From Bacteroidota bacterium (lineage in GTDB: Bacteria; Bacteroidota; Ignavibacteria; Ignavibacteriales; Ignavibacteriaceae): DNA of 64,000 bases. The position numbers and the translations under genes were made by a program. Positions 11,464 through 55,641 of this stretch are shown in pieces. The notes under the pieces were generated by a model, which was not told where the DNA came from, searched no databases, and saw only the letters and a program-made list of their open reading frames with translations. Where the stretch lies: NCBI GenBank assembly GCA_021815405.1, contig JAKAGV010000009.1, positions 62,001 through 126,000 of the forward strand, given 5' to 3'. The first letter of the stretch is position 1. Each line of letters begins with the position of its first letter.

Positions 11464-13005
11464 TTATTCCCATTCAATTGTCGACGGCGGCTTGGAACTT
11501 ATATCATACACTACTCTATTCACGCCGCGAACTTTGTTAATAATTTTATTAGAAAGATTCGCAAGGAAATCTCCATCAAACTGAAACCAGTCCGCAGTCA
11601 TGCCGTCAACCGAAGTAACCGCCCGCAAAGCCAGCACGTTATCGTAAGTTCTAGAGTCGCCCATAACACCAACCGATTGAACCTGCAGCAGCACGGCAAA
11701 TGCCTGCCAAATTTTATTGTAAAGATTTGCAGTTCTAATTTCCTGGATAAAAATATCGTCAGCTTCTCGCAAAATGTCAAGCTTTTCTTTTGTGATTTCA
11801 CCTAAAATTCTTACCGCCAGACCCGGTCCGGGGAATGGATGACGCTCGATAAATTCTTCTGGTATCTTAAGCTCTCTGCCGACATTTCTAACTTCATCCT
11901 TAAACAATTCTCTAAATGGTTCGATCAGCTTCAAGTTCATTTTTTCCGGTAAACCGCCTACGTTATGATGAGTTTTAATTGTAACAGAAGCACCTTTAAC
12001 CGGGACTGATTCAATTACATCCGGATAAAGCGTACCTTGAACTAGAAACTCAGCTCTACCGTGTTTCTTCGCTTCTTCTTCAAATACTTCGATAAAAGTA
12101 TTGCCGATAATTTTTCTTTTCTTTTCAGGATCAGAAACACCGGATAAATTTTTTAAGAATCTTTCACCAGCATCTACGTGGATATGATTAAGATTCAGCT
12201 TCTCATCAAATAATTTACCGATCTGCATGCTTTCATTCTTACGCATCAAGCCGGTATCTATGTGAATGCAGATGAGGTTTTCTCCGATTGCTTTTTTGAC
12301 AAGAACAGCGGCAACAGTAGAATCAACTCCGCCGCTTAAAGCGCAAATTACTTTTGAATTACCAGCAGTATTTCGAATTTTCTTAATATTCTCCTCAATA
12401 AAATTATGAGGAGTCCAGTCGCCTTTGCACTTGCAGACGTTAAATAGAAAGTTGTGAAGAATTTTTTTCCCTTCCTGAGTATGCATTACTTCCGGATGAA
12501 ACTGAACACCGTGGATGTTTTTCATTTCATTGGAAATCGCACAGAAAGGTGAATGATCGGATACCGCAACTACTTTGAATCCGTCCGGCAGCTTAGTTAA
12601 ATAATCGCCGTGACTCATCCACACAACCGAGTTGTTCATTACATTATCAAAAAGTTTAGAATCACCGGTAATGTTAAGTACCGCCTTGCCGTATTCTCTG
12701 TCCTTCGCCGATTCAACTTCGCCTCCAAAGGTTCGGCAAATAAGCTGAAGACCGTAGCAAATTCCAAGAACCGGAATACCGAGCTTTAATATTTCGGGAT
12801 CAAGCGTTGGTGCTCCTTCATCGTAAACACTCATTGGTCCCCCGGAAAGAATTATTCCGACCGGATTTATTTCTTTTACTTTTTCTAGTGAAATTGAATG
12901 CGGATGGACTTCAGAATATACATTCTCTTCCCTAACTCTTCTTGTAATAAGTTGAATGTACTGCGCACCGAAATCGATGATTAATATAGTTTCTCGTCTG
13001 TCCAT
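11464..13005 (-). CDS. guaA: GMP synthase (glutamine-hydrolysing)
   Basis: [64 protein letters not shown]-terminus. Confidence 0.98.
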
Positions 13006-13028
13006 AAGTTGTGATAGGTAAATGGTAA

Positions 13029-13098
13029 AAGTTATATGGTAAAGAGGTATAATATCTTAAAATCGATTTTTAATCTTATACCTTATACAGTATAACTT
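13029..13098. repeat. 70-nt imperfect inverted repeat between gcvH and guaA
   Basis: AAGTTATATGGTAAAGAGGTATAATATCTTAAAATCG / CGATTTTTAATCTTATACCTTATACAGTATAACTT. Confidence 0.6.
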
Positions 13099-17138: not shown

Positions 17139-17212
17139 TACGCCCAGAAGGACTTGAACCCTCAACCTTCGGAACCGGAATCCGACGTTCTATCCAGTTG
17201 AACTATGGGCGC
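17139..17212 (-). tRNA. tRNA-Arg(CCG)
   Basis: Minus strand GCGCCCATAGTTCAACTGGATAGAACGTCGGATTCCGGTTCCGAAGGTTGAGGGTTCAAGTCCTTCTGGGCGTA folds into a cloverleaf; anticodon stem TCGGA/TCCGA with loop TTCCGGT. Confidence 0.95.
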
Positions 17213-42861: not shown

Positions 42862-44541
42862 TCATCTCACCTTTATCACAACCAGTGTAATATCATCTGA
42901 TTGAGTTGTACCTTTGGCAAAAGACTGCACTTCATCTTTTATATTGTTCATGATTTCCTTTGCATTTGACGAACTGATTTCAAGAGACATGTTTTCAAGC
43001 TTCTCATCTGAGAATTCATCATCGTTAATATTCTTTGCCTCAGTAACGCCATCGGTAAATAAAATTATAACATCATCTTTCTTTAGCTGGATTGATTCTG
43101 ATAAATATGGAACGAACGTCTTCATAACGCCAAGAATAATTCCGCCTTTTTCAAGCTTGATTATTTTTCCATCTCGAATCAATAAAGGAGGATTATGCCC
43201 GGCGTTTACGTAATTAATAGTTTTAGTTTCATTCTCTAAAATCATCCAGAAGAAAGTTATGAATTTGCCGTCTGAAATATTTTCAGAAACCAGGTCGTTT
43301 ATCAATGCAGTGGCTTCATCAAGCTTCATCCCCTGTTTACATATAATTTTTAAGAAGGCTTGCAGATTAGCCATCAATAAAGCAGCAGGAACACCTTTGC
43401 CTGAAACATCTGCGATTGTAATGCAAACGGAATTATCATCAAGTGGAATAACATCGTAATAATCACCCCCAACTTGCTGGGATGTTAAATTCAAAACTGA
43501 AATATCAAAATTATTGTAAGCGGGAATTTCTTTCGGTAAAAGATTTCTCTGAATGCCCCTGGCAAGCTCAAGCTCTTCTTCCATTTTTTGTTTAGCAAGA
43601 GCTTCCTTAAACAAGCGTCTGTTTTCCAAGGAAATTATGGCTAAGCTTCCTGTCGAGTATATAAATTCGATATCTGACTCAGAATATTTTTGATTGTTAA
43701 TTCTTTTACCGAGTAGAATAAGTCCCTTAGTTTCTCCTTGCAGTTCCATCGGAACAATTAGCTCAATACCAATCTTGGCAAGCTTATCATAATTAGATAT
43801 TATTTCCTGCTCGTTAATTGGATTAGCCAGCTTTGAAAAATCATAGCATGAAAGAATTGATAGAAGCTGATCTTCAGGAAATTTAGTTTCCAGTATTCTT
43901 GTTCCATCTTCAATAAACGTTACGACTGCGAATTTTGAAACAAGAAACTGCCCGATAACAGAATAAACCAAAAGCTTGGCAACCTTAGTTGATTCGGAAA
44001 CAATTCCAAACTCTTTACTCAGTTCAAAAAGTGAATTAAGCCTTTGAATCCTAGTGTCGAGTTTACGGTTAACTTTTTTTATTTCTTCCAGGATAATTGA
44101 ATTCTGAATTGCAGAGGCGGCAATATTCAAAATAGTTTTTAAGAATTCTATATCGTCCTCATTGAATGGAGATTTATTCAGCTTCTCGCCAAGGCAAACA
44201 ACTCCAAGGCATTCATCCGACGAGCAAATTTTCTCTACAGCCTGGAGCTTTGCTTCTTGGAAAAAGTTTTGAAATTGTTCGTTATCTATTGTATTATCGG
44301 CGGCGGATACTTCAGGAAATTTTTTTTTTAATTCCTCCGGTATTCCCTTGGAAGATTTGATTTGCAATTTCTCATGAACCTTGAGAGCAATTAAGCCTCT
44401 TGTAGCGAGAAATTTTCCCATGCATGTTAGAAGGACATTGTTAAGAATGAAGTCGAGATCGAGACTGCTGTTGATAATCCTGCTGAACTCCACCAACGCA
44501 GTAAGATTTCTTTTTACCTTAATGTTCTCAGTGTCAATCAT
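42862..44541 (-). CDS. GAF-SpoIIE (PP2C) serine phosphatase, RsbU-like
   Basis: IQRNLLPKEIPAYNN...QVGGDYYDVIPL...ADVSGKGVPAALLM...SDDITLVVIKVR. Confidence 0.92.
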   Translation of the reverse strand: MIDTENIKVKRNLTALVEFSRIINSSLDLDFILNNVLLTCMGKFLATRGLIALKVHEKLQIKSSKGIPEELKKKFPEVSAADNTIDNEQFQNFFQEAKLQAVEKICSSDECLGVVCLGEKLNKSPFNEDDIEFLKTILNIAASAIQNSIILEEIKKVNRKLDTRIQRLNSLFELSKEFGIVSESTKVAKLLVYSVIGQFLVSKFAVVTFIEDGTRILETKFPEDQLLSILSCYDFSKLANPINEQEIISNYDKLAKIGIELIVPMELQGETKGLILLGKRINNQKYSESDIEFIYSTGSLAIISLENRRLFKEALAKQKMEEELELARGIQRNLLPKEIPAYNNFDISVLNLTSQQVGGDYYDVIPLDDNSVCITIADVSGKGVPAALLMANLQAFLKIICKQGMKLDEATALINDLVSENISDGKFITFFWMILENETKTINYVNAGHNPPLLIRDGKIIKLEKGGIILGVMKTFVPYLSESIQLKKDDVIILFTDGVTEAKNINDDEFSDEKLENMSLEISSSNAKEIMNNIKDEVQSFAKGTTQSDDITLVVIKVR

Positions 44542-44543
44542 TC

Positions 44544-44990
44544 TTAATTTGCACCGTTAAGATTTTTTGATAAAAGTACTTGGTTATATTTGCCAGGCAC
44601 CGAGACATATTTCACTTCATCCATCAACGATTTCATTAGGTACATACCTAAGCCGCCAACTCTGTGCTGCCTGTAATACTTTTGAAGATCGGGGTCGGGA
44701 ATGCTTTCAGGATTAAACGGCACACCATGATCGATAATCAAAACTGTAAACTTTTTTTCTTTATACTTAAGCTTGATAGTAATCTCGCCTTCTGGGTAAG
44801 ATTTATATGCATGCTTAATAATGTTTGTGCAAGCCTCGTCGACAGCAAGGATAATATTATCAATTACATCTTTTGAGAAGCCGACATCAAGCGCAGCTGC
44901 ATAAACAAAATCTCTTATAGTCGAAAGATTGTTAGTTTTGCTTTGGACTACAAGCACTTTATCTTTTATCTTTTTATTTTCCATTTTCAA
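44544..44990 (-). CDS. RsbW-like anti-sigma-factor HATPase/serine kinase
   Basis: NIILAVDEACTNIIKHAYKSYPEGEITI; HRVGGLGMYLMKSLMDEV. Confidence 0.9.
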   Translation of the reverse strand: MKMENKKIKDKVLVVQSKTNNLSTIRDFVYAAALDVGFSKDVIDNIILAVDEACTNIIKHAYKSYPEGEITIKLKYKEKKFTVLIIDHGVPFNPESIPDPDLQKYYRQHRVGGLGMYLMKSLMDEVKYVSVPGKYNQVLLSKNLNGAN

Positions 44991-45345
44991 GTTTCTTTAT
45001 CTGGCTAAATTTGTTTATAGCTTCATCTTCTTCTTTATAGATTTCATAAAGAAGAGGAAAGCCCAGCAAGTCGAAAATGTTAAATACTTTATCGTTCATT
45101 GCCGATAATTTTATATCTCCGTTGTTTTCCCTAATCTTTTCGATGAAAGCCATGAAAACACCGAGACCCGCGCTGCTGATATAAGATAGGTCTCTAAAGT
45201 TTACAACCAGGGAATACCGTCCGCTATCAACCAAATTAGAAAAAGTATTTTCTAAAATCGGTGCTGTATGAGCATCTAAGTATCCTTTCAGATAAATAAT
45301 ATTTACATCACCTGCGTCTTTAACTGAGGTGCTGAATTCTGCCAT
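44974..45345 (-). CDS. STAS-domain anti-sigma-factor antagonist
   Basis: LVVNFRDLSYISSAGLGVFMAFIEKIRENNGDIKL. Confidence 0.9.
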   Translation of the reverse strand: MAEFSTSVKDAGDVNIIYLKGYLDAHTAPILENTFSNLVDSGRYSLVVNFRDLSYISSAGLGVFMAFIEKIRENNGDIKLSAMNDKVFNIFDLLGFPLLYEIYKEEDEAINKFSQIKKLENGK

Positions 45346-47432
45346 TCTTTCTCTCCATCATTATTAAATTTTTGTTTCCACTTCAATATAACTAAAGTTA
45401 TGTCGTCATGCTGTGCATGGCTCTGAGAGAACACTGAAACTTCATGCATAACACGATTGGAGATTTCATCTGTATCACATCCGCTGTTGTCAACAAGAAT
45501 TTTCTCAAAATGTGCACTTCCGAAATCTTCCAGTTCTTTATTCTTTGCTTCTGTTATTCCATCAGTATACAAAACAATAACATCATTATTATGAAGTTTA
45601 ATTTCAATTTCTTCTAGTGAATTTACAAACTGTTCGCTGAAATTCAATCCGAGCCCAATACCTGATGGGCGCAAATTCTCAACAATGTTATTTCTTATTA
45701 AAATTACGGGGCAATGACCGGCGCGAGAAATTGTTACTGTTTCTTTAACTAAATCCATTACTCCGTAAGCAGCGCTGACGAAGCTTTTACGGTCTAATGT
45801 CCTCTCTAAAATTTCATTTGCTTTAATTAGAATATCCTTTGGGCTCTCGATGGTTTTCGAAAGCGATTCAAAAATTCCCTTGATCTCTGCCATTATAAAA
45901 GCTGCAGAAATTCCTTTACCGGAAACATCAGCAATAACAAAGCCGAACTTGCTTTTATCTATTTCGAAGAAGTCATAATAATCTCCGCCGACTTCAAAAG
46001 CCGGAATGAATACAGACGAAATGCTGAGATTTTTATACTCCGGATTTTTTGCCGGTAAAATTTTCCTCTGAATCTCTCTGGCAACGTCAAGCTCTTTCTC
46101 CAGCCGTTCCTTTTCAATTGATTCTTCAACCAGTCTTGAATTTTCGATAGCAACGGAAGCATAATCGGAAAAAGTATCCATTGCATTCCTATCTTCATCA
46201 TCGAAAATAATATCGCTTTTTCTAGCTGCTATCAAATAACCCTTTACTTCATTGTGGGCTTTTAGCGGAGCTGCCGCAAGGTAATAGATCTCTTCGCTTA
46301 ACTGCGGACGGTTTAAGTATCTTTTTAATTTAATTATAAAAGACTGCTCGGAACCTTTTTCCAAACGATTTTCAAAAATAAATTTTGTTAGATTGATTGA
46401 ATCGTAATATCCAATATGTTTATTTGCGATTGACTTGAAGCTATCATCTTCTTTCCAGGCAATCCATGAGGCATGCGCATTGCAGACTTTAACTGCTATA
46501 TCTGTAACGGTTTCAGTAAGCTCCTTAAAATCGACAGACTCAGTAATCAGCTTGCTGAAATACTGAAGAAAATTAACTTCCTGGGCTTTCCTATCAAATG
46601 CTTCCGCAGTTGGAATATGGAACAGAGTTGTAAAGAACAAAATAGAAAAATAGATTGCACCGTATGTCATTACTATCTTCAAAAATAAGTTTAGAGACGG
46701 CGAGAATGCGGTAAGCATCTGAACGTACAGATTATCATTCGAGGATTTAACCAGGTTGACGAAGAATAAAATCGAAATTATTACCGACAGAACAAGAAGT
46801 GAAATTTTTTCTTTCTTAACAATAAACGCAATCCATGAAATGCGGATTGAATTTATTAAGATTAGGAGAACCGAAATGATGAAGAAAGTGTCTTTTAAGT
46901 ATTTTAGATCATGGCTCAGAAAGCTCGATAAACTTGCTAATGCAAAGAATACAATCATCGTGTTAAAGTAGGTGCTTACATTCTTTTTCTGGCGGTAAAA
47001 ATAAAGTTCCCGGAAAGCCAAAAATATCGTAGCAGCCGATGCCAAAATGAACATTGAAAAGACAAAGGAAATCAAATTATAAAGCAAGCTGTGATTGATA
47101 TTCGAACTTTCCGCCTTAGAGATCAGACTGCCGAGAATGACGCTTGAAAATGTAAATAGAAAAAAAATAAGAGCGTTAATTATTCCCACGTTCATTACAA
47201 GCGCTAGAGGGTCAACTATTTTCGAATGGATTAAATCAAGTAAATAGAAATAAAGCGAAACGAAAGTTAAGCCTACAAGTAATTCATTTATAATAACCCA
47301 GAAAAGCGAATCTGCAGAATAAAAAAATATTCTGAACAGGAAAAGCACTGCTGCTAATCCGAGGAAAGTTTGGAATTTAAGGTTTGACTTTAATTCCACA
47401 CCGTTTATTTTAAGAAAGTTCAGCTTCGACAA
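45303..47432 (-). CDS. Membrane GAF-SpoIIE (PP2C) serine phosphatase
   Basis: N-terminal TM helices; IQRKILPAKNPEYKNL...EVGGDYYDFFEI...ADVSGKGISAAFIM...HDDITLVILKW. Confidence 0.92.
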   Translation of the reverse strand: MSKLNFLKINGVELKSNLKFQTFLGLAAVLFLFRIFFYSADSLFWVIINELLVGLTFVSLYFYLLDLIHSKIVDPLALVMNVGIINALIFFLFTFSSVILGSLISKAESSNINHSLLYNLISFVFSMFILASAATIFLAFRELYFYRQKKNVSTYFNTMIVFFALASLSSFLSHDLKYLKDTFFIISVLLILINSIRISWIAFIVKKEKISLLVLSVIISILFFVNLVKSSNDNLYVQMLTAFSPSLNLFLKIVMTYGAIYFSILFFTTLFHIPTAEAFDRKAQEVNFLQYFSKLITESVDFKELTETVTDIAVKVCNAHASWIAWKEDDSFKSIANKHIGYYDSINLTKFIFENRLEKGSEQSFIIKLKRYLNRPQLSEEIYYLAAAPLKAHNEVKGYLIAARKSDIIFDDEDRNAMDTFSDYASVAIENSRLVEESIEKERLEKELDVAREIQRKILPAKNPEYKNLSISSVFIPAFEVGGDYYDFFEIDKSKFGFVIADVSGKGISAAFIMAEIKGIFESLSKTIESPKDILIKANEILERTLDRKSFVSAAYGVMDLVKETVTISRAGHCPVILIRNNIVENLRPSGIGLGLNFSEQFVNSLEEIEIKLHNNDVIVLYTDGITEAKNKELEDFGSAHFEKILVDNSGCDTDEISNRVMHEVSVFSQSHAQHDDITLVILKWKQKFNNDGEKEWQNSAPQLKTQVM

Positions 47433-47614
47433 TTGAGTATCTATTTATCTCTTCATTTGTAGGTTAAATTACGGCAAAAATTGCTATTTGTAAAGAAGAG
47501 TTGGGATAGACGGAAATTTTTTAGGATGGATGAAGTCGAAATTTATTCAGAATACTTTTATAAAACCTTTTATGAATAAATTTTGTAATTCATTTGTCAT
47601 TGGGCATCAACCAT

Positions 47615-47672
47615 CATTCAGCAGTCATTCATTGCATTTAGTAAAAGAATGACAATAAATGATCGCTGAATG
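47615..47672. repeat. 58-nt imperfect hairpin downstream of 47684..49258
   Basis: CATTCAGCAGTCATTCATTGCATTT / AATGACAATAAATGATCGCTGAATG. Confidence 0.55.
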
Positions 47673-47683
47673 AGTTACTTTAT

Positions 47684-49258
47684 TTAGATCTCAAACGGCT
47701 TTTTAGGTTCTGCTTTAGGCGCGGATTTACGAAGTTCTTTCTGCATTTGGTCCATTTCTTTTTGGAACTGCTCCATCTGCTTTTTGAATTGCTGCAACTG
47801 TTCTCTCAGATCATTCTGCCGTAATCCATTGGTTGAATCCTGCATAAAATACTTAAAAATGGAAGCCAGAGAATCCGGATTGAATCCGTAATTAAAATTC
47901 TTTAATTTCTTGCGCATTAAAGAATCCAGTTTGTGATTCTTTGCGGTAAAGGTAGAATCAAATCCGAACGCTTTGAAATTGAAATTTAACCCCTTGGAAG
48001 AATCGTTATAAAAATATTTGTAACTAAAATTCTTGCCTTTTTGACGCTGCGGAATTTCAAAGTAAAAATCGCGCAAGTGCCTTGTAATACTGTCAATATT
48101 ACTTCCAAGGTCTTGCATGTCCGGCAAATCAATTTGCGGAATTACAATTTCCGGAATATGAACACGGCATGTGTTACTGTCGATAACCACATTAAAATCT
48201 CTCTCCCAGCTGGAATCTTTTTTCAACTTAGCAAGATTATCGCCGAAATGAACCCGGAAGTTTCCGAACTGTTTTTCAAATTCCTGCATGTTCTTCTGGA
48301 CTTCCTTTGACCACTGCTGCATTTCCTTTGCAAATTCCTGCTGATTGAATTCATATTGATCGGAAAAGATCGAATCAGGTGTTAAGAAGATATATTTGTT
48401 TGTATTTGCAGCCCTAACCGCATGTACAATCCGGTTTAAATCAGCTTCACTATATTCATGAGTAAATTCAGGCGGAAAAATATTTTGCAATTTCCTCTTG
48501 CTTACCTTAGCGGCAAAGGAAATTAAATCAGCGGTAAGCGCTTTGTTATAATTCCAGATGTTTGGGTTTATAGCAACCGTATTCTTATCATTTACCAGGA
48601 CCTGAGAAGCAAGATCTTTCTTGTAGGCAGAAAGGATAGAATCCATCTGATATTTCTGTTCAGTATTTAGATTTAATTCCCTCTCAAACTTCTCAAGATT
48701 ATTTTCATTCTGGGCTAAACTGGCGGTTTTAATTTCAAAAAATTGTTTACCGTTTTTGTCGGAGCCAAACTGCAGACACTGTTTTTTCTGTTCGTCAAGG
48801 GGCAATTGATGGTAAACTGCAAAATTAAAAATATCCTCGTTACTTAAGTTTGCAGTAAACAGAAGAGGTTTCAGATTCTCTTTATAAAATGCAGCTAAAT
48901 TAGATTTCTGCTGCTCAACAACTCTATCAATAATTTGCGGATTATATTTTAGGATAAACATCAATAAGACGGATGCAGCAACTATTCCGATAACCGGAGA
49001 ATATTTTCTAATTTTTTTATACCACGGTGTTTTTATTCTTAACGCAGCGGCAAGACGGGTTTCAAAAAAAGGATTTTCCTCAATCGATTTGACTGAAGAA
49101 ATAGTCAGCATTTTTATTCGCTTCAATTCATCAAGCTTTTCTTGAAGCTCTTTAGAAAACTTTAATTCATCTTCGAGCTTTTTAATTTCATCATCGGAAA
49201 GCTCGTTATCTATGTATGCAGAAAGACGTTCGTATTTATTGTAAAAACTTTTCATCAC
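47684..49258 (-). CDS. Transmembrane anti-sigma-factor-like protein with long Gln/Lys-rich extracytoplasmic region
   Basis: N-terminal YERLSAYIDNELSDDEIKKLEDEL, one TM (IVAASVLLMFIL), 4-bp overlap with the ECF sigma gene. Confidence 0.7.
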   Translation of the reverse strand: MMKSFYNKYERLSAYIDNELSDDEIKKLEDELKFSKELQEKLDELKRIKMLTISSVKSIEENPFFETRLAAALRIKTPWYKKIRKYSPVIGIVAASVLLMFILKYNPQIIDRVVEQQKSNLAAFYKENLKPLLFTANLSNEDIFNFAVYHQLPLDEQKKQCLQFGSDKNGKQFFEIKTASLAQNENNLEKFERELNLNTEQKYQMDSILSAYKKDLASQVLVNDKNTVAINPNIWNYNKALTADLISFAAKVSKRKLQNIFPPEFTHEYSEADLNRIVHAVRAANTNKYIFLTPDSIFSDQYEFNQQEFAKEMQQWSKEVQKNMQEFEKQFGNFRVHFGDNLAKLKKDSSWERDFNVVIDSNTCRVHIPEIVIPQIDLPDMQDLGSNIDSITRHLRDFYFEIPQRQKGKNFSYKYFYNDSSKGLNFNFKAFGFDSTFTAKNHKLDSLMRKKLKNFNYGFNPDSLASIFKYFMQDSTNGLRQNDLREQLQQFKKQMEQFQKEMDQMQKELRKSAPKAEPKKPFEI

Positions 49259-49848
49259 AATAACTCCTGTTTGTAAGGCTTCAACAGCTCTTTCAAACCT
49301 TCCCTCGCTCTAAATATTCTCGATTTAACAGTACCAATCTCACATTGTATTGATTCAGAAATCTCCTGGTAACTCAATCCTTCTATATCTTTAAGCAGCA
49401 GCGGCACCCTTAGCTTATCCGGCAGTTTAGCAATAGCTTTATGAACAATTTCCTTTATATCCGAATTTTCAGGCGCCGTTTCATAACCAAGCTCTTCTTC
49501 CGAATCTTTAATCGGTGAAAAAATTTGCCTGATTTTTATTTTCCGAAGATGATCTTTGCATTTGTTAACCGTTATTCTGTAAAGCCAGGTTGTAAACTGC
49601 GATTCAAAGCGGAAGCTTCCTAAATTTTTATAAACAGTAAGAAAAACTTCCTGCGCAATATCATCAACCAGGTCATGGTTGTTCAAAGTTAAGTAGATTA
49701 TATTCCTTACTTTTTCCTTATGCCGTTGCACTAAAGTACTAAAAGTAGATTCATCGCCTTCGATAAATCTTTTTATAAGGGAAAAATCGTCATCTAAATT
49801 TAATATTTGAGGTAAAGGCAATTTTTCATTCTTCTTTTTGTTTTTCAT
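49255..49848 (-). CDS. ECF-type RNA polymerase sigma factor (sigma-70 family)
   Basis: VDDIAQEVFLTVYKNLGSFRFESQFTTWLYRITVNKCKDHLRK; LSYQEISESIQCEIGTVKSRIFRAREGLKELL. Confidence 0.94.
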   Translation of the reverse strand: MKNKKKNEKLPLPQILNLDDDFSLIKRFIEGDESTFSTLVQRHKEKVRNIIYLTLNNHDLVDDIAQEVFLTVYKNLGSFRFESQFTTWLYRITVNKCKDHLRKIKIRQIFSPIKDSEEELGYETAPENSDIKEIVHKAIAKLPDKLRVPLLLKDIEGLSYQEISESIQCEIGTVKSRIFRAREGLKELLKPYKQELL

Positions 49849-51827: not shown

Positions 51828-53045
51828 ATGAAAATGTCTGGTGGTCCAGCATCCATCAATATTAAAATTGCTCTTCTGGTTATCGCTATAATAATCGCAG
51901 CGGGAACACTGTATTATACGCAGATGCTCGTCCAGCAGCTTCAAACAAAAGAAAGACAAATTGTTCAACTTTATGCTAAGGGAATAGAGTACGTTGCCAA
52001 CACTTCCAGAACAGATGCCGATATTACATTCTTGTTCGAAAATATTCTTAAGCCAATAGACTTCCCCTTAATAAACACAGGACCGGATAATAAAATAAAT
52101 ATCGTAAATAAAGATGATATAAAAGATGTGAGAAATATTAATTACGACACTTCCCTATCCGCTCAGCAATTAGAAAAATTCTTTGAAGCTAAAGCAAGGG
52201 AAATGGATAAAACTCATAATCCTATTAATGTCACTTACAAAGATTCGGTAGTTCTTCAAAGGATTCATTACGGCGATTCCGATCTGATCGTTCAATTAAA
52301 ATATTATCCTTACCTTCAAATTGTAATTGCTGCACTGTTTATAGTTTTAGGATATATCGGTTTTAGCAATATCAAAAAGAGTGAACAGAGCAACATCTGG
52401 GTTGGGATGGCAAAAGAAACAGCACATCAGTTCGGAACCCCAATCTCCAGTTTGATGGGATGGCTTGAAATGCTTAAGCTTAGCTACAAAGATCCGGATA
52501 AAGTGCTTGACATTTCAGAAGAAATAAATAACGACGTCGAAAAACTAAATAAGATTACATACCGGTTTTCAAAAATTGGAGCCACACCTGAATTAAAGGA
52601 ACAATCAGTTTACGAAACCGTTAAGACTGTTGTCGATTATTTTCAAAGGAGGCTGCCGCAGTCCGGGAGAAATGTTGACCTGACAATTACTGGTGATAAA
52701 AATGTCTGTGCTGAGTTAAATGCAGAATTATTTGAATGGGTAATTGAAAACTTAATTAAGAATGCGCTTGACGCAATTGAAAATAAGGAAGGCAAAATAA
52801 ATTTCGAGATAAAAGCTGTTAGAAACAACGTTGAAATTGAAGCAACAGACAACGGTAAGGGAATAGAAATGAAAAGGAGAAAAGATATTTTCCGCCCCGG
52901 TTACAGCACAAAAAGAAGAGGCTGGGGTCTTGGATTAAGCTTATCGAAAAGAATAATCGAAACTTACCACGAAGGGAAAATTTTTGTTAAAACTTCAGCA
53001 CCAGGTGAAGGAACTACTTTCAAAATTATTTTGAAGAAAGCCTAG
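51828..53045 (+). CDS. Membrane sensor histidine kinase
   Basis: [24 protein letters not shown]-box; [29 protein letters not shown]. Confidence 0.92.
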
Positions 53046-53986
53046 CTCATTTCAAGCATTCTTTCGATAGGTCTAAGCGCTTTGACCATAATGTCGTCCG
53101 GAAGAGTAATTTCAGGTTTCCTGTCTTTCATACATAGATAAAGTTTTTCCAGTGTATTCAATCTCATATAAGGGCATTCGTTGCAGTTGCAATTTTTCTC
53201 CGGGGGAGCAGCAATAAATTTCTTATGCGGCGCAATCTTTTCCATTTGATGAATGATACCTGGTTCAGTTACGACAATATAATTTGATGAACTATCCGAA
53301 AGAATAAAACTCAAAAGCTTACTTGTAGACCCTATAAAGTCAGCCCGGTTAAGAAGCGCATCTTCGCATTCAGGATGAGCAATAATTTTCGCATCCGGAT
53401 ATTGAACTTTTAAATCAATAATTTTTCTTTCGCTGAATGTCTCGTGAACAATACATGAGCCATCCCATAAGAGCATTTTTCTACCGGTCTTCTTCATCAA
53501 ATATTTTCCTAGATTTCTATCGGGAGAAAATAGAATTGGTTTATCTACCGGAATTTGGTTAATAATTTTTTCAGCATTGCTCGAAGTGCAAATTATATCA
53601 CTCAAAGCTTTAACCTCGGCAGTGCAGTTAATATAAGTTATTGAAACATGATCAGGGTACTGTTTCCTAAAATTCTTGAATAAAGGTGCGGGGCAACTAT
53701 CTGCGAGCGAGCAGCCAGCTTCAAGGTCTGGTAATAGCACCAGCTTATTTGGATTGAGGATTTTGGCTGTTTCAGCCATAAAATGAACACCTGCAAATAC
53801 AATGACATCTGCGTTGGTTGATTTTGCTTTTCTTGAAAGTTCAAGGCTATCGCCGACAAAATCTGCAAGATCCTGAATTTCTGAATCTTGATAATAATGA
53901 GCTAGTATTACAGCATTTAGCTCTTTTTTAAGCCGTTTAATTTCGCTCTCGATGTCAATATCAGAATCAATAATTAATTCACTCAT
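53042..53986 (-). CDS. nadA: Quinolinate synthase A
   Basis: [64 protein letters not shown]; start set at MSELII. Confidence 0.96.
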
Positions 53987-54101
53987 TCCTGTAAACTCCC
54001 GTAATTTTATTATGGGCAAAGTTAACAAATTTTTAACAAACGCTTTGTCTCATAGTAAACATTTTAATACTAAATTTCTTAAAAGAAGGCACACGATTTT
54101 T

Positions 54102-54229
54102 CAATAAAAGCTTTTTTCGCTCAAAAATCAACCTGGCATAGCAATTGGATAGTACCATGTGAAAATAGAAAATAGTTTTAAGCATAATCCCTCACTTTTA
54201 TACCCCGATTTTATATCGGGGTCCTTCTT
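54102..54229 (+). ncRNA. Putative small-RNA module, copy 1 (promoter-like motif + 28-mer + hairpin)
   Basis: TGGCATAGCAATTGG (54134), TGAAAATAGAAAATAGTTTTAAGCATAA (54160-54187), ACCCCGAT-TTTAT-ATCGGGGT then CCTTCTTTT. Confidence 0.45.
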
Positions 54230-54308
54230 TTAAACCAGAAAGAAAAACAATAGACGGAAAAAACGTAATTCGTCAGGTAATTTTTACCTGTAAAAAAGTG
54301 CCTTTCAC

Positions 54309-54468
54309 CAATAAAACCTATTAAATAAAGCAGAAATCAACTAATTTTTATGGCATGTCAATTGATAAATATAAACTGAAAATAGAAAATAGTTTTAAGC
54401 ATAACATCCCTCCTACAAGAATGTCACTCTAACTGCCGGATGATCCCTCAATCCGGCAGTCCTCTTTT
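54309..54468 (+). ncRNA. Putative small-RNA module, copy 2 (paralogue of copy 1)
   Basis: TGGCATGTCAATTGA (54351), identical 28-mer (54377-54404), ACTGCCGGAT-gatccctca-ATCCGGCAGT then CCTCTTTT. Confidence 0.45.
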
Positions 54469-54552
54469 AAAGCATTACTAAACAAAAAAGTGAATTTTCA
54501 AGTTTTCCTGTTGGCTAATATTATCCGTAAGCCTAATATTATTATCCAGGAA

Positions 54553-55641
54553 TTATAATATACTTTCCATCTGGGAGAGAGAATTAAAAACCGCTTTCTT
54601 CCCTGCTTCCGCATCCAATATGATTTTACCAATGCCGGACAAAAGCACAAACTTAATCTGTTGGTTTCTGTTCTTTTTGTCATGAAGCATAATATTAAAT
54701 AAATCTTCTTTATTCAGTCCTTTTAATCTGGAAGGGATTTTCATTTTTAATGGAAGGGAAAGCAGATCTGATAATGAATTCGTAGAAAGCAGCCCGATTT
54801 CATTTGAAAGGAAAAGTGCGGCAATAACTCCAGCATCTACAGCTTCACCATGCTTTATTCTGAAGTTTAACATAGTCTCAAACGCATGTGCAAAGGTATG
54901 ACCGAGATTCAGAATTTTTCTTAAGCCGGATTCTTTTTCATCTTGAGAAACAACCGATGCTTTTATTGAAGCTGAATCATAAATTATTTTTTGCATGACT
55001 TCATTATCGTATTCATAAATTTTCAGGTAGTTGGCAATTACATATGAGAAAAACTTTTCATCTGATAGAAATGCATATTTAACAATTTCTCCGAAACCGG
55101 AAGTCAACTCAGATTTTGGCAAAGTTTTAAGAAGCTCGGTATCGGTGAGAACAAACTTCGGCTGGTAAAATGCGCCGATCATATTTTTTTTCTTTGCGAA
55201 GTTAATTCCTGTTTTGCCGCCGATTGAACTGTCAACAGCAGCTAGAAGCGTTGTTGGAATATGAATTAATTGAACGCCGCGCATAAAAGTAGCCGCTGCA
55301 TATCCTGCAAGATCACCTGTTACACCACCGCCAATTGCTATAATTGTTGTATCTCGTCCATAATTATTATTCAACAGGAAAGAATAAATTCTATTAAGCT
55401 CAATATAAGATTTTGATTTTTCTCCCGGTTTTAAGTAATAAGAATTCAATTTCTTCTTATTTGAAGGGATATAATTCTTTAATAGTTCCGGATTATTTTT
55501 GCGGACATTGCTATCAATAATTAATAAAAAATTTTTATTAACCTGATATTTTCCCAGAAGCATATCAAGTTGATTTAGGATTCCGCTTCCTATTAAAATA
55601 GGATAAGAATTTTCTTTTAACGATACTTGAATTTTCTTCAC
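54553..55641 (-). CDS. aroB: 3-dehydroquinate synthase
   Basis: IAIGGGVTGDLAGYAAATFMRGVQLIHIPTTLLAAVDSSIGGKTGINF; LNLGHTFAHAFE. Confidence 0.97.
   Translation of the reverse strand: MKKIQVSLKENSYPILIGSGILNQLDMLLGKYQVNKNFLLIIDSNVRKNNPELLKNYIPSNKKKLNSYYLKPGEKSKSYIELNRIYSFLLNNNYGRDTTIIAIGGGVTGDLAGYAAATFMRGVQLIHIPTTLLAAVDSSIGGKTGINFAKKKNMIGAFYQPKFVLTDTELLKTLPKSELTSGFGEIVKYAFLSDEKFFSYVIANYLKIYEYDNEVMQKIIYDSASIKASVVSQDEKESGLRKILNLGHTFAHAFETMLNFRIKHGEAVDAGVIAALFLSNEIGLLSTNSLSDLLSLPLKMKIPSRLKGLNKEDLFNIMLHDKKNRNQQIKFVLLSGIGKIILDAEAGKKAVFNSLSQMESIL

Follow-up and report, generated by a model that had tools for sequence, protein, structure and literature searches.

Organization of the tandem modules between nadA and aroB

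What is encoded by the two related non-coding modules that lie between nadA and aroB in this member of the Ignavibacteriaceae? In the window (the whole 64,000-nucleotide stretch analysed), the modules are on the plus strand and both flanking genes are on the minus strand (Table 1). The original prediction, made from the letters alone, described two paralogous copies with a set of shared elements, and all of these were located as described. An identical 28-mer occurs at 54160–54187 and 54377–54404, the copies being 217 bp apart, and each 28-mer begins exactly 26 nt past the start of a TGGCAT motif. The modules end in a perfect hairpin followed by a tail (CCTTCTTTTAAA in module 1 and CCTCTTTTAAA in module 2). 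The view that hairpin and tail form a terminator holds for the hairpin, which is kept and covaries among relatives (see below), and less well for the tail; the U-tract is weak and some relatives have no U-run at all, so the label 'terminator' is only partly apt.

The 28-mer has no further copy in the 4.97-Mb genome at up to three mismatches (two in total), and the reversed 28-mer, used as a control, gave 0 matches in the same genome. Rfam was searched for a known, unrelated element. At the gathering threshold neither module matched any family, the sole match in the window being a tRNA at 17139–17212, and a lax threshold returned only chance-level matches. A cluster elsewhere in the window (42862–49848, minus strand) looks like partner-switch regulation, encoding two SpoIIE phosphatases and a STAS protein together with an ECF sigma factor and an unknown protein of 524 aa.

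Table 1. Features of the nadA–aroB locus and its neighbours, in window coordinates.
Feature	Position	Strand	Basis
Sigma-54-type −24/−12 element, module 1 (TGGCATAGCAATTGG)	54134..54148	+	Exact position; 78 family promoters with N5 spacing and invariant GG and TTG
Putative sRNA module 1, ~77 nt	54160..54236	+	5' end inferred from −12-to-+1 spacing; R1 match 58.4 bits; predicted target A pairing −32.8 kcal/mol, z −6.4
Predicted target-pairing stretch, module 1 (AGAAAATAGTTTTAAGCATAATCCCTCACTTTTAT)	54167..54201	+	Predicted duplex with target A leader and start codon
3' hairpin, module 1, 8-bp stem	54202..54222	+	Position; covarying helix
Palindrome CAGGTAATTTTTACCTG, candidate upstream activator site for module 2	54274..54290	.	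EM motif (68 upstream regions), 10-bp phasing, position
Sigma-54-type −24/−12 element, module 2 (TGGCATGTCAATTGA)	54351..54365	+	Position; family promoter survey
Putative sRNA module 2, ~98 nt	54377..54474	+	R1 match 94.8 bits; predicted target A pairing −30.9 kcal/mol, z −4.0; rank 1/335 leaders
3' hairpin, module 2, 10-bp stem, CCCTC in loop	54432..54460	+	Position; 10/10 pairs covary
Histidine kinase gene, sRNA neighbour across the family	51828..53045	+	Synteny; in 49/49 good genomes; HATPase_c
nadA, neighbour	53042..53986	-	NCBIfam nadA; often, not always, between histidine kinase and sRNA
aroB, neighbour	54553..55641	-	NCBIfam aroB; synteny

The modules belong to a conserved family

Conservation in related genomes was examined by pattern, BLAST and covariance model searches. 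Pattern and BLAST searches found the modules in tandem or as a single copy, the nearest named relatives being MAGs labelled Bacteroidetes, Ignavibacteriales, Ignavibacterium sp. or Ignavibacteriaceae. The covariance model R1 was built from the RNA part only of 27 copies (alignment A1), with the promoter left out. At E ≤ 0.01 it found the module in 60 of the 80 genomes of the GTDB family and in 21 of 29 genera; about 58 of these genomes are credible, since the matches in G075 and G076, both inside the count of 60, look like chance. In the rest of the phylum R1 gave weak matches only, mostly without promoter and context; the one in G081 looks real and the remainder look like chance.

Pairing of the 3' hairpin is maintained across the family. 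In an alignment of 91 distinct sequences, which was fitted to R1 and is hence biased towards the model, 98.3% of the cells were paired and all 10 pairs showed two-sided changes (217 such cells versus 47 in shuffles), while slid controls collapsed. RNAalifold recovered the same helix from the MAFFT alignment A1 (27 copies). This recurrence, together with the retained hairpin pairing, places the modules far beyond chance; judged by their sequence, they are an un-catalogued, conserved sRNA family of Ignavibacteriales, of known general kind.

The usual order of the locus is histidine kinase–(nadA)–sRNA–(aroB)–aroK, in which nadA or aroB may be missing, and most sRNA loci adjoin orthologues of the window's histidine kinase, nadA, aroB or aroK. 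In G024 and G025 the locus looks split, since one of the two copies shares a contig with nadA and the other a different contig with aroB. Some copies, L200 and L220 among them, have none of the four genes in the stretch examined. The neighbouring histidine kinase was considered as the regulator and rejected. It occurs in every good genome (49), including those without the sRNA, so its presence is no specific evidence for such a role.

A diverged group (g14, g16, g17 and g25) has, in most members, a 5' stem-loop in place of the AAAATAG block. Six diverged members (L204, L205, L206, L207, L175 and L210) combine a 5' stem-loop of varying sequence, present in most of them, with CACCCUCCUUAUAG, which resembles the 16S rRNA 3' end. 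Target A, the gene described below, was not detected in the genomes of these six.

Sigma-54-type promoters and a phased palindrome precede the modules

The −24/−12 element lies outside R1 and was seen, in a first count, in 73 of 90 R1 matches. In the collected upstream regions, surveyed with a regular expression that permitted N4 or N5, all 78 promoters read TGGCA(C/T)-N5-TTG with N5 spacing and with GG and TTG invariant. The C at −12 that completes the sigma-54 consensus (TTGC) is found in 10 of the 78, and A or T in 64; as this C is usual but not absolute, and is rare here, the promoter is named sigma-54-type. The conserved RNA sets in 26 nt downstream of the element's first base, at the position expected for a sigma-54 start, and the spacer between the two is not conserved. 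The rest of the machinery is encoded in the genome, which holds RpoN (E 3.8e-59) and 29 full-length sigma-54 activator domains. The alternative that the 28-mer is itself part of a Bacteroidota-type sigma-A promoter is unneeded, because the conserved block starts at the expected sigma-54-type +1 and is explained by pairing with a target.

When 68 non-redundant upstream regions were searched by EM, the motif CAGGTAAtaaTTACCTG emerged. GTAAN3TTAC sites (up to one mismatch) have their centres near −48, −58, −67 and −78 relative to the element, that is, in helical steps of about 10 bp, as expected of a sigma-54 activator site, which the palindrome would fit. Module 2 has one such site, and module 1 has none at the usual place. 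TGTCTCA(A/T)A is conserved upstream of module 1 within the genus (window 54040–54065), replacing the palindrome; it may be the site of a second activator or lie within the divergent nadA promoter. The two copies, sharing the pairing block and differing upstream, may therefore answer different signals. Conservation, the invariant −24/−12 spacing, the +1-like offset, the phased palindrome, RpoN and the 29 activator domains all support the predicted pair of tandem ~75–100 nt sRNAs under a shared sigma-54-like promoter.

The same promoter type precedes a gene for a secreted repeat protein

The palindrome followed after 47–77 nt by the promoter pattern was found in 60 of 80 genomes, and the reversed control gave about 15 single matches. 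Another recurrent site of this kind closely follows a sigma-54 activator gene and precedes target A. In the window's own genome the activator gene (G000:C16:235618-236991) encodes a PF00158 domain (7e-62) and a Fis-type HTH. Target A (G000:C16:237499-238637; L323 from 5488) encodes a secreted protein with near-identical 16-residue repeats, SNSQLDELGSRYAFAK; the gene holds an N gap. Its AlphaFold model has strand-rich repeats and a mean pLDDT of 52.5, too poor for use or for a structure search.

Other genes follow the same elements. A co-regulated lipoprotein in relatives (L335:4270-4815, L332:4009-4575) has an HFSRYAFIK-like end, which is the ending of the target A repeat. The palindrome and sigma-54 element also precede genes for small pilin-like proteins and for an F5/8 type C protein that carries a Por secretion tail (L334 = G017:C83; L337 = G042:C1), which suggests a cell-surface regulon.

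The sRNA is present in 33 of the 35 genomes with target A (Fisher p 1e-4, a test that ignores shared ancestry), and the other two, G062 and G068, are fragmented assemblies. With shared ancestry likewise ignored, co-occurrence is strong for activator and target A (p 8e-7) and weaker for sRNA and activator (p 0.006); the activator orthologue is missing in some sRNA- or target-bearing genomes (G018, G022, G002, G041, G078 and G079). About 25 genomes, including the diverged g14, g16, g17 and g25, have the sRNA with no target A detected. Target A therefore cannot be the sole target across the family, and those genomes must have others.

The modules are complementary to the target A start site

In module 1, AGAAAATAGTTTTAAGCATAATCCCTCACTTTTAT is complementary to CATAAAAGTATGAGGGAAAATTATGCAGAAAACTATTTTTA of target A, and the predicted duplex covers the ribosome-binding site (RBS) and the start codon. 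When compared with 334 further leaders, drawn from 464 kb of this genome, target A ranked first for both sRNAs (energies in Table 1). Across 23 genomes, none of 100 shuffled leaders was as good in 16 and at most two were in 21, with a median z of −3.8 (shared ancestry ignored); the duplex energy was not significant in G036 and G013, where 7 and 31 of 100 shuffled leaders were as good. Exact complements of 11–18 nt, unmatched by 300 shuffles, occur in 11 genomes (shared ancestry again ignored), the longest being 18 nt, in G020, and five further genomes reaching 13 nt. This complementarity to leader and start codon explains the identical 28-mer as a target-pairing region.

The target A leader is only about 40 nt long in the window's own genus, and long and folded in other genera. 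In these long-leader genera a second block, GTGTGTCAT, matches ATGACACAC of the sRNA, and the flanks co-vary by genus. One pairing element matches its own sRNA over 10.75 nt versus 8.22 nt for the sRNAs of other genera, by a permutation test that ignores shared ancestry. Of the remaining leaders that share this promoter type in those genomes, most show no pairing with the sRNAs. The clear exception is G060, in which the gene after the activator encodes a lipoprotein whose RBS pairs with the sRNA.

The next-best predicted partners of sRNA 2 among the sampled leaders are two adjacent genes with GGAGGGTAG-TTATG starts (L312:10489-11832 and 12364-13095, G000:C23; −30.8 and −27.4 kcal/mol), which are possible second targets. 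An anti-Shine-Dalgarno sponge, suggested by CCCUCC, which resembles the 16S 3' end, was rejected as an explanation, the motif counting solely towards the pairing site. The genome's own leaders show a moderate enrichment of SD-like motifs (AGGA/GGAG/GAGG, 28% versus 7%).

Alternative readings of the modules

The modules are best read as tandem, sigma-54-dependent, trans-acting antisense sRNA genes that would repress the co-regulated target A mRNA, with a probability of about 0.78. The sign of the regulation is where the nearest competitor, an unlikely one, departs from this: the same sigma-54-dependent sRNAs could pair with target A with an activating effect or an effect on its stability, for example by unfolding a leader structure that is inhibitory. 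The long folded leaders of other genera, whose start region is predicted to be only 19–40% unpaired, would suit such a role, as would complementary blocks well 5' of the RBS. A duplex over the RBS and start codon blocks ribosomes, and it is there that the duplex falls on the short leader of the window's own genus, which argues for repression.

Two further readings do not rest on target pairing. That the conserved RNA titrates a protein through single-stranded, C-rich motifs (CCCUC, in the linker and in the loop), with target A pairing secondary, is less probable still; CCCUC does recur in the linker, loop and tail of most members, genomes without target A included, and against this stand the long complementarity to one co-regulated leader, which follows genus-specific changes, and its general lack in the other palindrome-driven leaders. 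A micro-peptide gene opening in the 28-mer, also raised with the original prediction, can be given hardly any weight. Module 1 does read GTG AAA ATA GAA and stays open up to a TAA in the tail, but the frame is lost in relatives through 1-nt changes in T-run length (TTT, TTTT, TTTTT) and in-frame stops, and in other genera a stem-loop replaces the block.

Discussion

Under the repression reading, an activated sigma-54 activator, probably the neighbour of target A, would switch on target A and the sRNA together. The sRNA, if transcribed from its putative +1, would cover the start site of the target A mRNA and lower its translation. The outcome would be an incoherent feed-forward loop or a dosage brake on the secreted repeat protein. 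Hfq is common, though not universal, for trans-encoded base-pairing sRNAs. A search for Hfq gave no match in this genome, with the control search positive in E. coli and four others; pairing would thus depend on duplex length or on another chaperone.

Some species carry several paralogous Qrr sRNAs. In Vibrionaceae, the Qrr sRNAs depend on sigma-54 and LuxO or SypG, with palindromic upstream activator sites TTGCAWWWTGCAA, and Qrr1 post-transcriptionally represses the transcription factor LitR (PMC10162802). The modules resemble them in being short, in their sigma-54-type promoter and palindromic upstream sites, and in the post-transcriptional action proposed here from sequence. They differ in that no sequence relation is seen, the palindrome is another one, the best target encodes a secreted repeat protein and shares the promoter type, and no Hfq was found.

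GlmY and GlmZ also use sigma-54 promoters. In enterobacteria GlmZ activates glmS and GlmY serves as a decoy (PMC7073468). They too are a pair of similar sRNAs with sigma-54 promoters, but they are not in tandem and their sequence is unrelated to the modules. Closer in taxonomy, FopS and GibS of Bacteroides thetaiotaomicron are paralogous sRNAs with a shared seed that repress surface-protein mRNAs near the start codon, and the FopS genes have sigma-ABfr promoters and 14 paralogues at multiple loci (PMC11697453). Bacteroidota origin, paralogy and start-codon pairing, here predicted, are common to both; the promoter class and the many dispersed paralogues set FopS/GibS apart, and no sequence relation to the modules is seen. 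The literature searched gave no earlier description of an sRNA for Ignavibacteriales or of a sigma-54-dependent sRNA for Bacteroidota.

A broader proposal, tentative and at somewhat below even odds, is that this is an undescribed Ignavibacteriales sRNA family in which one activator and palindrome drive both the repeat protein and, from a distant locus, the antisense sRNAs that limit its translation in the absence of Hfq, with two different signals integrated by the tandem copies. The whole putative circuit, from activator, palindrome and promoter to sRNA and target site, can be read in the DNA. If true, it would mean that Qrr-type sigma-54 sRNAs occur far outside the Proteobacteria and in the absence of Hfq, and that their main target is a strange repeat protein.
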